Source of the DNA: Methanomicrobiales archaeon
GTDB taxonomy: Archaea > Halobacteriota > Methanomicrobia > Methanomicrobiales > Methanospirillaceae
DNA: 41,185 bases
Direction of reading: 5' to 3'
Assembly (NCBI GenBank): GCA_025350045.1
Contig: JANXYM010000017.1
Location: 1 to 41,185, forward strand
The position numbers and the translations under genes are program-made. Positions 26,517 through 31,736 of this stretch are shown in pieces (position 1 is the stretch's first letter; each line of letters opens with the position of its first letter). The notes beneath the pieces were generated by a model that was not told the DNA's origin, did not search any database, and saw only the letters and a list, made by a program, of their open reading frames with translations.

Positions 26517-27464
26517 ATGAATACTAAAAATATCGTCTTAACCCTTATCATTGCCGCATGCTGTCTTCTTGTACTACAGCCGGCTCTGGCGCAGGGCAGC
26601 GAAGGTCAGACTGTGATCTACCAGACTTCGTTTGCTTCCGATCCCCTCTGGAAAACCAACAACCCGTCAACAAATTACTGGGACCCGAACCTGGGGATGT
26701 ACCACTTCTCCATAGAGCCCAGCACGGGAAGCTACGTCTACACCCCGGTGGTGTTCGACTCGGGATCCTTCACCCTGGACTATGATTTTATCCTTAACAG
26801 GATTGACGACGGTGCAACTTTCCGCATGGGATTATCCGGTACTGAGATGGACTTCAACAAGGGTCCCAATGTTGTATCCCTGTTCACCAATGCAAAATAC
26901 GGCAAAATCATGTGGCTTCATATCGTCACTCCCGGAAGCAAGATGGTGGAGATGAACAGCCAGAACGCGGCAGTGGAGATGGGACCTGATGCCTACAAGG
27001 GCCCGACGGCAAAATACGATGTCAATAAAACCTACCATGTGACGGTCAACTATAATGATGAGACCCGGGTCACGACAATGAAAGTACGGGAATCGGAATC
27101 AGGAAATGAGATCTGGAGCTATTTCATCCAGGGCACCGAGAACATGAAGGAATTGAACCGTATCTTCCTCGGATCAAAGGGAGATTATGGCCCCACATTT
27201 ATCTACGCTCAGGGTTATCTCGATAACGTGCGTCTTACGGTCCCTTCCGCAGGAGCTGCCGTCATTGAAACACCTGTTGAAACCCAGCCCGTAGCCACAG
27301 AGCCGGTCCCTGTCACACCAACTAAAAAACCTACCCCGAAGATGACCGTCCCGACACCTTACCCGACAAGTACTCCCCAGTCCCCCTCATCAGGATTCCT
27401 TCCCGTAGTTGCGTTTGGCATCTGCGGTGCACTCTGTTACATCAGTGCCAGGAAAAATAACTAA
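26517..27464 (+). CDS. Secreted, membrane-tethered concanavalin-like surface protein
   Basis: This is a 315-residue surface protein. A signal peptide (about 1-25, ending in QPALAQ) is followed by a beta-rich domain of about 215 residues. Its opening, YQTSFASDPLWKTNNP, and end, YLDNVRLTVP, resemble LamG/concanavalin A-like jelly-roll folds. A Pro/Thr stalk of about 50 residues (VTPTKKPTPKMTVPTPYPTS) leads to a C-terminal membrane helix and short basic tail, the usual anchoring of methanogen surface proteins. Ligand and role are unknown; sugar binding is only suggested by the fold. GGAG stands 9-12 bases before the ATG. Confidence 0.8.
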   Translation: MNTKNIVLTLIIAACCLLVLQPALAQGSEGQTVIYQTSFASDPLWKTNNPSTNYWDPNLGMYHFSIEPSTGSYVYTPVVFDSGSFTLDYDFILNRIDDGATFRMGLSGTEMDFNKGPNVVSLFTNAKYGKIMWLHIVTPGSKMVEMNSQNAAVEMGPDAYKGPTAKYDVNKTYHVTVNYNDETRVTTMKVRESESGNEIWSYFIQGTENMKELNRIFLGSKGDYGPTFIYAQGYLDNVRLTVPSAGAAVIETPVETQPVATEPVPVTPTKKPTPKMTVPTPYPTSTPQSPSSGFLPVVAFGICGALCYISARKNN

Positions 27465-27984: not shown

Positions 27985-28224
27985 TCACCTCGGTGGATAC
28001 GGCATCGTTCCCGGGATGATAGCGGGGCCGGCAGGCATCGCGGAATCTGCGGTATATTCCGGATCCAGCACTGGACCGCCGGCACTCACGCAATGGGTAG
28101 TGAAGATAATCCCGCTTCCAACAGAGCCGGAATTATCACACCCGGCTGCATTGGCGGGATTAATCACCATGGCAACCGAAAAAGCGATGAGCGCAAACCC
28201 CAGAAAAATTTTGCCGGTATCCAT
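27985..28224 (-). CDS. Small secreted protein of unknown function
   Basis: This is a 79-residue product from ATG 28224, preceded by GGAGA at good spacing. Residues 1-26 form a signal peptide (MDTGKIFLGFALIAFSVAMV, then a site after ANAA), leaving about 53 mature residues with only two cysteines (CDNSG and THC), a possible disulfide, and a Pro/Gly-rich end. The longer upstream in-frame extension lacks protein character and overlaps the promoter. No family is recognised. A TATA element lies about 90 bases upstream. Confidence 0.6.
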   Translation of the reverse strand: MDTGKIFLGFALIAFSVAMVINPANAAGCDNSGSVGSGIIFTTHCVSAGGPVLDPEYTADSAMPAGPAIIPGTMPYPPR

Positions 28225-28311
28225 TTGGTTCTCCTTTCCTTTGTTCTGCATGGGTCGGTGACACGCCGAATCCGTATCGTGTATCACCTGGTTATAGTGT
28301 CTGGGGTTGAG

Positions 28312-28323
28312 CTTATATATTCC
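28312..28323 (-). promoter_or_regulatory. TATA box for the small secreted protein
   Basis: The minus strand reads GGAATATATAAG here, a good archaeal BRE/TATA element. It sits about 90 bases from the gene start, implying a leader of roughly 60 bases. Confidence 0.45.
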
Positions 28324-28398
28324 CCAAATTCTTACGGTTCGAGCATCGAACCCCCGGGTTACAGTAATGAACCTACGGGATAGCAGGGAGGGAGAGAG

Positions 28399-28406
28399 AA
28401 TATAAA
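28399..28406 (+). promoter_or_regulatory. TATA box for the HTH-FHA regulator
   Basis: AATATAAA follows a GGGAGGGAGAG purine run. It lies about 72 bases before the preferred ATG 28478 but only 6 before the ATG at 28412, which argues against the upstream start. Confidence 0.5.
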
Positions 28407-28477
28407 CCGTCATGCCCTTATCTACCGGTTACCTAATGGTTGGTAGAAAAAAACAGAAATTTTTTGGTGAAGTACCC

Positions 28478-29263
28478 ATGAACCCTGCGGACAAATCCCC
28501 GACAATAATTATTCACGAAGAGTCTGATTCTCTTGTGGAACTATCAGAGTACCTTGATGTTCTGTCGAGCAGCGCACGGCTCAGGATAGTAAAATTTTTA
28601 GAAAAAAAACCCCGGGATGCCCGGGCGATCTCAAAAGAGATCGAAACCAGCTACGAGAACACCAAAAAGCACCTCGATAAACTGCTGGGTATTGGTGTGA
28701 TCAAGAAGGAGGCGGGTCTCGGTGCCCCGACCTCAAAAGGCATTCACCCTGTCTGGGAATATTCTGTCGTTCCGGGGGGGCTCGAAGCGATCATCAGGAA
28801 CCTGGGACTCTTCTCCAATGCCCGGGTCCAGATCGTTGGCGGGGAGATCTCCCGCAGGTTAGAAGAAGTAAAAGGCACCCTTTCAAAAGAGGTACTCGGT
28901 AACTATCCTGCTGCGATTGTGCTTGGGGGTCCTGATGACGGGAAGGCGTTCATATTAAAAACAGATACCGTTGCTATCGGCAGGACCGATCCGGATCACC
29001 CGACCTCCTTCGATCCGGCCAGGGATATTGTTCTTGCGGATGGTTATACCGCGGTTACCCGGGTATCAAAACCCCATGCACACATCTGCCGCGAACACGG
29101 CATCTGGTATATAGAGGACTGCGGAAGTACCGGAGGAACCCAGCTGAACAACAAGAAACTCGAGGATCGTGCGCGTGTACCGGTCCATGACGGGGATCTT
29201 GTTGAGCTTTCAAAAGGAATATCCGGTGTAAAACTTGTCCTGATCATCCCCCACGGTGCTTGA
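28478..29263 (+). CDS. HTH-FHA transcriptional regulator
   Basis: This is a 261-residue cytoplasmic protein. Residues about 18-85 form an ArsR-like winged helix (SSSARLRIVKFLEKKPRDAR, AISKEIETSYENTKKHLDKL), a DNA-binding domain. After a spacer helix, a forkhead-associated domain spans about 145-258, with the fold's key GRTD, SKPHAHI, and GSTGGTQLNNKKL motifs (FHA GR, SxxH and NG positions; here N is kept in LNN). FHA domains bind phosphothreonine peptides. The adjacent gene, 91 bases downstream on the same strand, encodes a transmembrane Ser/Thr kinase, so phospho-dependent control is likely. ATG 28478 is preferred for its GGTGA site and TATA spacing over ATG 28412. Confidence 0.9.
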   Translation: MNPADKSPTIIIHEESDSLVELSEYLDVLSSSARLRIVKFLEKKPRDARAISKEIETSYENTKKHLDKLLGIGVIKKEAGLGAPTSKGIHPVWEYSVVPGGLEAIIRNLGLFSNARVQIVGGEISRRLEEVKGTLSKEVLGNYPAAIVLGGPDDGKAFILKTDTVAIGRTDPDHPTSFDPARDIVLADGYTAVTRVSKPHAHICREHGIWYIEDCGSTGGTQLNNKKLEDRARVPVHDGDLVELSKGISGVKLVLIIPHGA

Positions 29264-29354
29264 TGGAGAAACGATCAGGGTTTTTATGATAATAAAAAAC
29301 AAATAATGATGACCTTATCATAATAGTACACAAAGAAAAACGTTCACCGTATCC

Positions 29355-31490
29355 ATGACCCCCATCTTTCAATCTGGCCGGTTAATCCTTCTCATAGTCC
29401 TCCTGTTCTGTACGGCGGGTTTTGCAACCGTAGCCGCTGCCGAACACACGGTAGCCCCCTCAGGAGCCGAGTTTACCAGCATAGAGGCTGCGATTGACTG
29501 GGCCTCCTCCGGGGATACGATTACGGTTGAGAGCGGTATCTATCCGGAAAGCGTCCGCATGGAAAAGAAAATTCTGCTCATCGGCATTGACAGTGGCAAT
29601 GGTGCGCCGGTAATTGATCCGGGTAAAAAAGGAAATGCCGTGGATATTCGTACAGATGGATGCACGGTGGAAGGGTTTGTCCTCAGGAACAGTGAGCTGC
29701 TCAGTGGTATCCGTATCTCCTCCAGCCAGAATACTGTCAGGAAAAATACGATAAGTAATAATTCCCAGGGAATCACCCTGGCCTCTGCTGAGAAAAACAC
29801 CCTTTCGGGAAACAATATCAACAACAACCGGCGAACCGGCATTGTACTTGAGGGTTCGAATGGTAACCTGATTGAAGACAATATCATCAGCGCAAATACC
29901 CTTGGTATTAACCTCGATGAATTCTCGCTCTCGAACCGGATCTTCCGGAACAATTTTTTCAACACCCAGAATGTGGTCTCAAAGAGCGCGACTTCGATCT
30001 GGAGCACAACAACCCCCCTGACCTACACCTACCTGGGGAAGAAAGAGCAGAGCCGTATGGGGAACTACTGGAGTGATTACCGCGGCAGGGATAAAAATGG
30101 TGACGGGATCGGGGACTCCCCCTACTCAATTGATTTGGGTGGTAACCCAAAAGCGATCCTGGAATCAGCCCAGAATATCATCGATGCGTTCCCCCTCATG
30201 GATCCAAAGGAGTATTTCACGGGAATCCTGCCGGTCCCGGTCAAAGCTCTGTCCCTGACCCCGACCCCGTTAGTTCCTGAAGCCACTGGTTCGTCGACAC
30301 CGGCATCCCTCAACACGTCCCTGCCCGTGCCCGTTGTCTCCGAAATTGCTCCCAATATTGTATCAGCGATAGATCCCGGGGACAGACTACCCGCGGGAAC
30401 TGTCCTCCCGGTACTGGGAGTCATCATCCTTGCCGTGCTTGCAGGAGCGATCTTCCTGGTATACCGGAAACAAAAAACACCCGTGACAGCAGATACTCCC
30501 GAGGCACCCAAAGATGTACCTCAAAATGTACCTGCAGCTGTACCCGCAGATCTCCCCCCGGCAAAAGCAACCGTGATCTCCCGCAGCACCCGGGCCCCGG
30601 TGACAAGCTCCAGTAAGGATACCGCACTTCCTAAAGAGAGTATCCCGGAGGGATATTACCCGACAACCTCTGAGCAGAAATACTACTTCCCCCGGGAACT
30701 GGAGAACAAGTATACCGACATTGCTTTTATCGGGCGGGGGGGCATAGCATGGGTCTTTTCTGCGGTCCGGAAGACCGATGGCTTAAAAGTGGCAGTCAAG
30801 ATCCCGATCAGTTTTGACGAGATGACGGGCAGGTCGTTCTTAAACGAGATCAAGGCCTGGGAAACCCTGCAGCACGCGAATATTGTAGAGGTTTTTGGTG
30901 TCAATATTTTACCCGTCCCGTATGTCGAGATGGAATTTGTGCCCGGCTCGCTGGAGGAATTGAAAAAACCCCTGGCCGTCTGGAAGGCGGTGCATATTAT
31001 CCGGGGGATCACGGATGGTATGAGCTACGCCCATACGCATGGGTTCATCCATCGCGATATCAAGCCGCACAATATCCTGATGACTGAAGATCTTGTACCG
31101 AAGATCACGGACTGGGGGATGAGCAAGGTGCTTGCTGCAGATGTGAAAAAATCCAGCATTGCCGGTTTCTCTCTCTCGTATGCAGCCCCGGAACAGGTCT
31201 CTCCTTCGGAGTTTGGCAGGACCGATGAACGCACCGATATCTACCAGCTCGGGGTAGTTTTCTATGAAATGGTCACCGGCTCAATCCCGTTTGGCGGCGA
31301 AAGTATCGTTGAAGTGGGAAATGCCATACTGCGGGAAAAACCCATCCCCCCGTCAGAGTACACTGCAGATGTCGGGCCTGTTGAAAAGATCATCTTAAAA
31401 TGCCTGGAAAAACTTCCCGCCGACCGTTACCAGTCATCGGCCGAACTGCTGGATGCGCTCTCCCGGTACCTGGACGAGGATGATGAGTGA
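29355..31490 (+). CDS. Transmembrane Ser/Thr protein kinase with extracellular beta-helix sensor
   Basis: This is a 711-residue receptor-like kinase. A signal peptide (1-29) precedes an extracellular right-handed beta-helix of NosD/PbH1 type (about 30-285), with repeated N(T/L)(I/V)...NN and GI turns such as NTISNNSQGITL and NNINNNRRTGIVL. A Pro/Ser/Thr stalk leads to one membrane helix at about 351-373. The cytoplasmic part has a Pro-rich linker and a Hanks-type kinase (about 452-708): GRGGIAWVF, catalytic Lys K482 in VAVKIP, HRDIKPHN with D568, DWG at 586-588 (as in CK2, instead of DFG) and AAPEQ. All catalytic residues are present. It probably senses a surface polysaccharide or wall component; the upstream HTH-FHA protein is the obvious candidate substrate. 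Confidence 0.92.
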   Translation: MTPIFQSGRLILLIVLLFCTAGFATVAAAEHTVAPSGAEFTSIEAAIDWASSGDTITVESGIYPESVRMEKKILLIGIDSGNGAPVIDPGKKGNAVDIRTDGCTVEGFVLRNSELLSGIRISSSQNTVRKNTISNNSQGITLASAEKNTLSGNNINNNRRTGIVLEGSNGNLIEDNIISANTLGINLDEFSLSNRIFRNNFFNTQNVVSKSATSIWSTTTPLTYTYLGKKEQSRMGNYWSDYRGRDKNGDGIGDSPYSIDLGGNPKAILESAQNIIDAFPLMDPKEYFTGILPVPVKALSLTPTPLVPEATGSSTPASLNTSLPVPVVSEIAPNIVSAIDPGDRLPAGTVLPVLGVIILAVLAGAIFLVYRKQKTPVTADTPEAPKDVPQNVPAAVPADLPPAKATVISRSTRAPVTSSSKDTALPKESIPEGYYPTTSEQKYYFPRELENKYTDIAFIGRGGIAWVFSAVRKTDGLKVAVKIPISFDEMTGRSFLNEIKAWETLQHANIVEVFGVNILPVPYVEMEFVPGSLEELKKPLAVWKAVHIIRGITDGMSYAHTHGFIHRDIKPHNILMTEDLVPKITDWGMSKVLAADVKKSSIAGFSLSYAAPEQVSPSEFGRTDERTDIYQLGVVFYEMVTGSIPFGGESIVEVGNAILREKPIPPSEYTADVGPVEKIILKCLEKLPADRYQSSAELLDALSRYLDEDDE

Positions 31491-31544
31491 ATCCCTGCAC
31501 ATGTTCCCTTTTGTGCGCAATATGCCGTTTTACCGGGTGATCTG

Positions 31545-31736
31545 ATGAGTGACGGGAAAAAAACGTACGAACCTGCAGTATGTGCTTCATGCGAGGGATT
31601 CGGGTGCACGGTCTGCAGTAAAACCGGTACTGTACTGGTTACTGCGCCCAAGCGGCAGTGTCCGCACTGCGAGGGTGCCGGGTGTATTTACTGCGGATTC
31701 ACCGGATGGGCAGGACCTAAGGGCAAGTACGACTGA
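31545..31736 (+). CDS. Small DnaJ-like zinc-finger protein
   Basis: This is a 63-residue protein with two CxxCxGxGCxxC-type repeats, CASCEGFGCTVC and CPHCEGAGCIYC, each followed by a (K/F)TG(T/W) turn. This is the zinc-binding pattern of DnaJ central domains, but without J or peptide-binding domains. GGGTGAT lies 5 bases before the ATG, and the gene begins 54 bases after the kinase stop on the same strand, so it may be the third gene of that operon. Possible roles are thiol redox or protein binding; none is established. Confidence 0.8.
   Translation: MSDGKKTYEPAVCASCEGFGCTVCSKTGTVLVTAPKRQCPHCEGAGCIYCGFTGWAGPKGKYD

Follow-up and report, generated by a model that had tools for sequence, protein, structure and literature searches.

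To our knowledge, Ser/Thr signalling in archaea has been connected to few defined transcription factors and signals. The closest described arrangement is bacterial: in Mycobacterium tuberculosis, a single operon contains embR and, downstream of it, pknH, and EmbR combines a winged helix-turn-helix (wHTH) with an FHA domain (PMC9239209, PMC4601284). In this system phosphorylation was not detected in vivo under standard growth (PMC9239209), which calls for caution with respect to the relay considered below. The FHA domains of DgcB, OdhI, GarA and EmbR bind a phosphorylated tail or act as kinase targets (PMC6733907, PMC4601284). For Sulfolobus, links between kinases, FHA domains and transcription have been described for ArnA (Duan and He, 2011, as cited in PMC10470591).

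The locus that we compare with these systems lies in a window of 41,185 bp, a contig of a Methanomicrobiales archaeon. Pfam, an AlphaFold model and a fold search identify a transcription regulator of 261 aa, HTH-FHA (28478..29263, plus strand), followed after 91 bp by the gene for a receptor-like Hanks kinase of 711 aa (29355..31490, plus strand) with a signal peptide, beta-helix ectodomain, Pro/Thr linker, transmembrane helix and kinase domain. The first-pass annotation had placed a winged-helix plus FHA protein 91 bases upstream of a kinase, and the presence and coordinates of both were confirmed; it knew of no described system with this exact layout, but embR-pknH has it (PMC9239209, PMC4601284). 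Within the 2.53 Mb assembly, this adjacent pair comprises the sole FHA match and the sole strong Pkinase match, and the two genes are neighbours order-wide. Their adjacency is therefore far beyond chance.

HTH-FHA consists of a disordered tail, an ArsR-like wHTH (about residues 17-97), linker helices and the FHA domain (residues 142-258; 28901..29251, plus strand). Pfam matches were obtained for HTH_5/ArsR (residues 32-77, E 6.5e-05, 23.2 bits against a cut-off of 22) and FHA (PF00498, residues 167-244, E 1e-11). Profile comparison matches the wHTH to ArsR structures such as SmtB and CzrA, and its recognition helix hardly varies within the Methanomicrobiales. With an ArsR-like wHTH and no Pfam match to a BTAD, HTH-FHA falls outside the EmbR/SARP family. 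The best fold match of the FHA domain is 6hc1 (Z 16.4), the FHA domain of DgcB with its phosphorylated N-terminal peptide; OdhI, GarA and EmbR (Z 14.9) are further top matches, and 5a8i, from the Arn regulators of Sulfolobales, also matches (Z 14.5).

Residue 9 of HTH-FHA (codon 28502..28504, plus strand) is Thr in 79 of 79 sequences amid variable neighbouring residues; column identity reached at most 34% in a shuffled control. Residues 1-15 have a pLDDT below 50 in the AlphaFold model, and Ile, Leu or Val follows Thr9 at +1 to +3, with a hydrophobic residue at +2 in 61/80 and at +3 in 55/80 sequences. HTH-FHA thus has what characterizes a tail switch: its N-terminal tail is flexible and holds a conserved Thr with hydrophobic residues at +2/+3. 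By analogy, Thr9 is most likely the phospho-acceptor, predicted to create a phospho-tail like those that DgcB, GarA and OdhI bind through their FHA domains. We consider it likely that the two proteins form a dedicated phospho-Thr relay. The exchangeable N-terminal region of the kinase would sense a cue from outside or from the membrane, leading to autophosphorylation; the kinase would then phosphorylate the co-encoded HTH-FHA, most likely at Thr9 of the flexible tail, and the FHA domain would bind pThr9, either within the same chain or, as we think more probable, across a winged-helix dimer. We infer that this contact alters DNA binding by HTH-FHA.

In the kinase, Pfam matches Pkinase (2.7e-39, residues 453-693), NosD (6.1e-28) and Beta_helix (1.4e-14), and hydrophobic segments are centred at residues 19 and 359. 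The NosD-like right-handed beta-helix ectodomain (about residues 30-260; 29442..30134, plus strand) appears as a high-confidence strand ladder in the structure model, and hydropathy and a modelled helix place the transmembrane helix at residues 347-373 (30393..30473, plus strand). The signal peptide, NosD-like beta-helix and membrane helix claimed earlier were thus borne out by Pfam, hydropathy and the model. The kinase domain (residues 441-711; 30675..31487, plus strand), of which the nearest solved fold is PknB (31% identity), contains the full Hanks catalytic set (VAIK Lys, K482; alphaC Glu, E498; HRD Asp, D568; Asn, N573; DFG Asp, D586; and APE, as APEQ), and is predicted to be a Ser/Thr protein kinase of the Hanks type. 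K482, E498, D568, N573 and D586 are invariant in 77/77 aligned paired kinases, and APEQ is nearly so. The complete Hanks core previously noted, with its K482 and D568, therefore stands for the catalytic set, but DFG reads DWG, here and in all relatives. The catalytic set is complete in all aligned kinases, while the ectodomains differ between pairs. The idea that the beta-helix senses a surface glycan is unsupported; other pairs carry other ectodomains.

Activation-loop positions 600/601 of the kinases are mostly Thr/Ser, and phosphorylation of EmbR by PknH requires the EmbR FHA domain (PMC4601284). Both would fit an arrangement as proposed for EmbR-PknH, possible but unlikely in our view, in which the FHA domain binds phosphothreonines in the activation loop of the autophosphorylated kinase, so that the regulator is tethered at the membrane or other Thr residues are presented for phosphorylation, with a structural or other role for Thr9. 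However, the loop positions vary among Thr, Ser and other residues, whereas Thr9 is invariant, and no conserved Thr was found in the juxtamembrane linker of the 77 aligned kinases; a linker Thr was accordingly dropped as FHA docking site.

A dedicated relay between kinase and HTH-FHA is also consistent with the distribution of the pair. Among 150 Methanomicrobiales genomes, 99 contain HTH-FHA; 97 have both HTH-FHA and a strong kinase, 47 have neither and 6 have one only (2 HTH-FHA, 4 kinase; p=1.2e-31). A codirectional kinase is located within 1 kb downstream of 80 of the 83 HTH-FHA ORFs (median gap 25.5 bp). The gene for an FHA-containing DNA-binding protein directly upstream of that for a membrane Ser/Thr kinase is thus kept in relatives; the first-pass annotation had named loss of this neighbourhood as what would refute its proposal, and the pair withstands that check. 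On the contigs of named genomes, with kinases detected by phmmer, the kinase has this position in 69/80; 5 more are too near a contig end and 2 have a convergent kinase. Apart from opposite-strand shadow ORFs, no other family occurs in more than 17 of 79 HTH-FHA loci. The HTH-FHA family was not found outside the Methanomicrobiales in a 295-genome sample of the phylum, which leaves room for unsampled or very remote relatives. Up to four copies of the pair occur per genome, and cognate partners agree in their nearest neighbour in 46/49 cases; the distance correlation between partners (r=0.633) exceeds the maximum from 500 within-genome partner swaps (0.592). The pair duplicates as one unit. Since the two genes are encoded side by side in most sampled genomes of the order, they probably form a one-kinase/one-regulator signalling unit, a compact and testable combination of writer, reader and regulator that is conserved across the Methanomicrobiales; some relatives also encode an eraser close by.

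Pleiotropy is the rule among bacterial Hanks kinases (PMC4601284), and genomes of the genus encode more kinases than HTH-FHA genes, as would be expected if a stress kinase with many substrates were encoded next to an autoregulating transcription factor and binding by HTH-FHA were a minor output. We regard this as improbable, given that a single strong Hanks kinase and a single FHA protein are encoded in the window genome, that paralogous pairs keep their cognate partners, and that co-occurrence is near-perfect.

The residues of the FHA domain bear on the reading step of the relay. From the phosphopeptide-contact set, Arg169, Ser/Thr197 (Ser in the window), Lys/Arg198 and Thr218 are kept; the canonical Asn is Gly219 in 76/81 sequences. 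The Asn of the FHA 'NGT' motif is thus Gly in nearly all members of the family, whereas Arg169, Ser/Thr197, His200, Ser217 and Asn224 show little or no variation within the order. Phosphopeptide binding by this domain is likely from its sequence, and the Gly may lower affinity or indicate an unusual ligand. That the same Gly marks a loss of phospho-binding, the FHA domain being a phospho-independent dimerization or kinase-binding module and regulation occurring by membrane sequestration, is highly improbable in view of the order-wide retention of those five residues.

Upstream of HTH-FHA, a phylogenetic footprint points to a tandem palindrome with a period of 21 bp, two copies of GGTT-N9-AACC (28336..28373), which in Methanoregula lies between the operon and a divergent gene for a secreted peptide. 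Searching 10 genomes for the exact 21-bp doublet gave matches in 7, the window genome included, all upstream of HTH-FHA. We consider it a candidate HTH-FHA operator. This assignment is provisional, because the doublet is confined to Methanoregula and close kin although the recognition helix is nearly invariant order-wide. In Methanoculleus the doublet was not seen, apart from one single-site case, and no one operator for the whole order was found. A putative TATA-like box of the operon coincides with a conserved ATATAAACCG block (28400..28407, plus strand); an earlier in-frame ATG is present at 28412, just 3' of this box, and the start was taken at the ATG at 28478. The divergent ORF (27985..28224, minus strand) encodes 79 aa with signal peptide MDTGKIFLGFALIAFSVAMVINPANAA, and sequence and alignment suggest a TATA-like box for it at 28312..28319 (minus strand). 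An inverted repeat, GGTGACAC...GTGTATCACC (28257..28288), probably lies within its 5' leader; both arms are preserved in almost every one of 27 loci, with a paired change (GGCGA/TCGCC) in one. Across 16 Methanoregula loci the signal-peptide region is conserved and the codon-position entropy (0.93/0.36/1.42) is of the coding type; the mature part is poorly conserved. With the likely operator between the two transcription units, the first targets would be the HTH-FHA/kinase system itself and the peptide, a candidate target gene. The proposal singles out Thr9 and offers a candidate for the operator as well as one for a target gene, which makes it testable with a few purified proteins.

Two further neighbours were considered. 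The small CXXC zinc peptide 3' of the kinase (31545..31736, plus strand) is present as described earlier, but its DnaJ-CXXCXGXG match is sub-threshold (E 0.0053; 17.4 bits, where the cut-off is 32.7). The 13 loci at which it neighbours the pair all belong to Methanoregula or a sister genus, and it was rejected as part of the conserved unit; as a genus-level neighbour it is probably outside the core. A PP2C phosphatase gene occurs near the pair in 13/79 loci and might reset the relay in those relatives. None is near the pair in the window genome, whose sole PP2C match is in a vWA-PP2C-kinase cassette, and genome-wide the occurrence of PP2C does not follow that of the pair, leaving PP2C unsupported as obligate partner. 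The Thr9 tail, tandem palindrome, divergent peptide gene and PP2C of relatives were absent from the first-pass annotation.

Like two-component systems, the pair combines a modular membrane sensor kinase with a dedicated DNA-binding partner in a gene pair that co-duplicates with partner fidelity. In contrast to their His kinase and receiver, it uses a Ser/Thr kinase and an FHA reader, which are not homologous to these; no histidine kinase or receiver was found in the pair (Pfam: Pkinase and FHA), which is thus not a two-component system. The earlier suggestion of a one-kinase/one-transcription-factor analogue fits the co-occurrence, adjacency, partner fidelity and swappable sensor, but its layout already exists in bacteria. 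It is quite doubtful that the pairs amount to an order-wide archaeal signalling class that parallels two-component systems in function, made up of insulated co-duplicating pairs whose ectodomains can be exchanged and whose switch is a phospho-tail. In this view, the beta-helix kinase of Methanoregula would have the divergent peptide, controlled from the shared operator, as its ligand or output, which would close an autocrine loop.

No description of the methanogen pair was found in an open-access search, most subscription papers lying outside it. Hanks kinases and an FHA protein also act on transcription in Sulfolobales (ArnA/ArnB-ArnC and ST0829, in archaellum and DNA-damage contexts; PMC12852372, PMC5300886, PMC10470591). 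The FHA fold match 5a8i belongs to this group, but ArnA is not known to have the HTH-FHA architecture, its partner is a vWA protein and the phylum is different. GarA, OdhI and Bdellovibrio DgcB, the closest FHA folds, have a similar N-terminal tail, flexible and with a single conserved Thr ahead of hydrophobic residues (PMC6733907). Output there is through metabolic enzymes or a diguanylate cyclase, whereas in HTH-FHA it is through a DNA-binding domain; unlike these proteins, HTH-FHA has Gly for the canonical Asn, and its kinase is encoded next door, whereas that of DgcB is not known. EmbR-PknH (Rv1267c-Rv1266c) shares the layout of a gene for a winged DNA-binding and FHA regulator upstream of that for a membrane receptor Ser/Thr kinase, as well as the FHA fold, and the kinase described here is nearest to the PknB type. 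The two systems differ in DNA-binding domain, in the predicted switch, in lineage and in scale: EmbR is a SARP (OmpR-type DNA-binding domain and BTAD, with C-terminal FHA), whereas HTH-FHA has an ArsR-like wHTH and helical linker without BTAD, and the methanogen pair, from another domain of life, has an invariant tail Thr, ectodomains of many types and paralogous copies with cognate partners. If the relay is correct, a two-component-like architecture would have arisen in archaea from eukaryotic-type parts, convergent with bacterial EmbR-PknH.

The one FHA match and the one strong kinase match (E under 1e-20) in the window's assembly adjoin each other, in a host genome that is Methanoregula-like and belongs to the order Methanomicrobiales. 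The three open reading frames (ORFs) proposed in the first-pass annotation are present: a putative HTH-FHA regulator (28478-29263, + strand), a kinase (29355-31490, + strand) and a small zinc peptide (31545-31736, + strand), with the expected 91 bp between regulator and kinase. The predicted domains were recovered in Pfam, ArsR-type HTH and FHA in the first ORF and NosD/Beta_helix and Pkinase in the second. In the AlphaFold models, HTH-FHA begins with a disordered tail (residues 1-15), followed by a winged helix, linker helices and an FHA domain modelled with confidence, and the kinase has a confident beta-strand ladder, a disordered linker, a single TM helix and a kinase domain that is closest to M. 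tuberculosis PknB in a fold search (31% identity). The zinc peptide (63 aa, CXXC zinc-knuckle) is kept solely in 13 Methanoregula-type loci; it had been called DnaJ-like, but its DnaJ-CXXCXGXG match falls below the Pfam threshold. ORF 26517-27464 (+ strand), a neighbour conserved across 8 Methanoregula-type loci, encodes a secreted protein with a signal peptide, a Thr/Pro-rich stalk, a C-terminal hydrophobic anchor and a weak sialidase-like CBM match.

In a sample of 150 genomes of the order, which includes many incomplete MAGs, HTH-FHA occurs together with a strong kinase in 97 and both are missing from 47, with HTH-FHA alone in 2 (both loci at contig ends) and the kinase alone in 4 (Fisher p = 1.2e-31, inflated by the relatedness of the genomes). 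The genomes that lack both belong to several different families and genera, a scatter that favours joint loss. The regulator and membrane kinase are conserved as neighbours in relatives, the test set by the first-pass annotation: a codirectional kinase lies at most 1 kb downstream of 80/83 HTH-FHA ORFs (81 fetched stretches; median gap 25.5 bp), and within 1 kb at 69/80 named loci of a second collection, which overlaps the first in part (some of the same genomes). Among the exceptions in the latter are five whose stretch ends too close to the gene and two where the kinase is convergent. With opposite-strand shadow ORFs set aside, no further neighbour is common to more than 17/79 loci, and HTH-FHA was not found outside the order in a genome sample of the phylum. 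Two to four pairs are carried by 22 genomes, in which the distance correlation of cognate partners was 0.633, versus a maximum of 0.592 in 500 within-genome partner shuffles, and nearest-neighbour checks agreed in 46/49. Co-occurrence, adjacency and partner tracking are what dedicated signalling pairs would be expected to show.

A different arrangement occurs in one genome (G047; L061, L220), where HTH-FHA is present twice and one copy is divergent (27% identity). A PP2C phosphatase gene separates the copies, and a single kinase, which they might share, follows the second. A separate case is a genome of the family (G006; L245 on C34, and C42) in which HTH-FHA is missing and very long ORFs encode several strong Hanks kinases, one beside a PP2C gene; it is a kinase system without the regulator.

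In nearly all kinase partners, the C-terminal kinase domain is preceded by a hydrophobic segment at the N-terminus and by additional TM segments; the few exceptions are either fragmentary or have a doubtful ORF start. The Hanks core is complete, as anticipated, with catalytic residues invariant in 77/77 paired kinases, and the DFG motif reads DWG in all. The ectodomains differ (NosD/beta-helix in 9/37, PEGA in 2/37, others without a Pfam match), so that glycan reading by the beta-helix is a guess concerning just one ectodomain type.

The first 14 residues of 81 HTH-FHA proteins are variable save Thr9 (codon 28502-28504), which is Thr in 79/79 sequences covering the position and is followed by Ile, Leu, Val, Met or Phe at +1 in 78/80, +2 in 61/80 and +3 in 55/80; in within-row residue shuffles no column exceeded 34%. 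The structures closest to the FHA domain include those of OdhI, GarA and DgcB, the last (6hc1, Z 16.4) showing the FHA domain together with its phosphorylated N-terminal peptide. In these proteins the FHA domain binds the protein's own phosphorylated tail, and a hydrophobic residue at +3 is a key feature of recognition (PMC6733907). The conserved Thr9 and this fold similarity together suggest a tail switch, in which the kinase would phosphorylate Thr9 and the FHA domain would read pThr9, in cis or within a dimer. A reservation about this reading is that the 'NGT' Asn, the peptide-contacting residue N97 of DgcB, is Gly219 in 76/81; Arg169, Ser/Thr197, His200, Ser217, Thr218 and Asn224 are retained. 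For the pair as a whole, we infer phosphorylation, tail binding, DNA binding and signal from sequence.

An alignment of 27 Methanoregula upstream regions revealed a conserved tandem palindrome, GGTT-N9-AACC, in two copies with a 21-bp period (28336-28373), between two TATA-like elements. Exact matches to this doublet all lie just upstream of HTH-FHA (ten genomes searched, seven with a match, the window's own included). It is absent from most loci beyond Methanoregula and close kin, and is therefore only a candidate HTH-FHA operator. Lying upstream of each of the two TATA-like boxes, it would be well placed for activation in both directions. Divergent from the operon, a small ORF (27985-28224, - strand, 79 aa) encodes a secreted peptide with a conserved signal peptide under coding constraint (codon-position entropies 0.93/0.36/1.42, 16 loci); the mature part is poorly conserved, with an ATYPYER-like C-terminal end in several relatives. 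The peptide is a possible target, pheromone or ligand. Upstream of its gene, a conserved inverted repeat (GGTGACAC...GTGTATCACC, 28257-28288), with a paired change GGCGA/TCGCC at one locus, might form a hairpin in the leader or serve as another operator.

A gene for PP2C, the putative eraser of the system, lies near the pair at 13/79 loci, in several families, where about one would be estimated by chance for genomes that each carry between one and a few PP2C genes. It is upstream of HTH-FHA at eight loci (directly in some) and downstream of the kinase at four; L061 is the remaining one. The window's genome has no PP2C near the pair, and its PP2C match lies in a minus-strand cassette on contig C42 (L243:1791-5266) with a vWA protein and an atypical kinase (672 aa), which resembles known vWA-PP2C-kinase triads and is separate from the pair.

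The first-pass annotation knew of no described system with this layout; the embR-pknH operon of M. tuberculosis is a precedent. There, embR, whose product combines an FHA domain with a winged DNA-binding domain, lies upstream of pknH, and PknH phosphorylates EmbR in vitro, with in vivo phosphorylation undetected in standard growth (PMC9239209, PMC4601284). In Sulfolobales, kinases act with the FHA protein ArnA in the transcriptional control of surface structures (PMC12852372, PMC5300886, PMC10470591). No description of the methanogen pair was found in the open-access literature searched. The likeness to EmbR-PknH is that of a DNA-binding/FHA gene upstream of a Ser/Thr kinase gene; the methanogen HTH-FHA, with no BTAD and an ArsR-like HTH, is not a SARP/EmbR member, and the pair looks like an independent version of the layout, specific to its lineage and present as multiple paralogous pairs.
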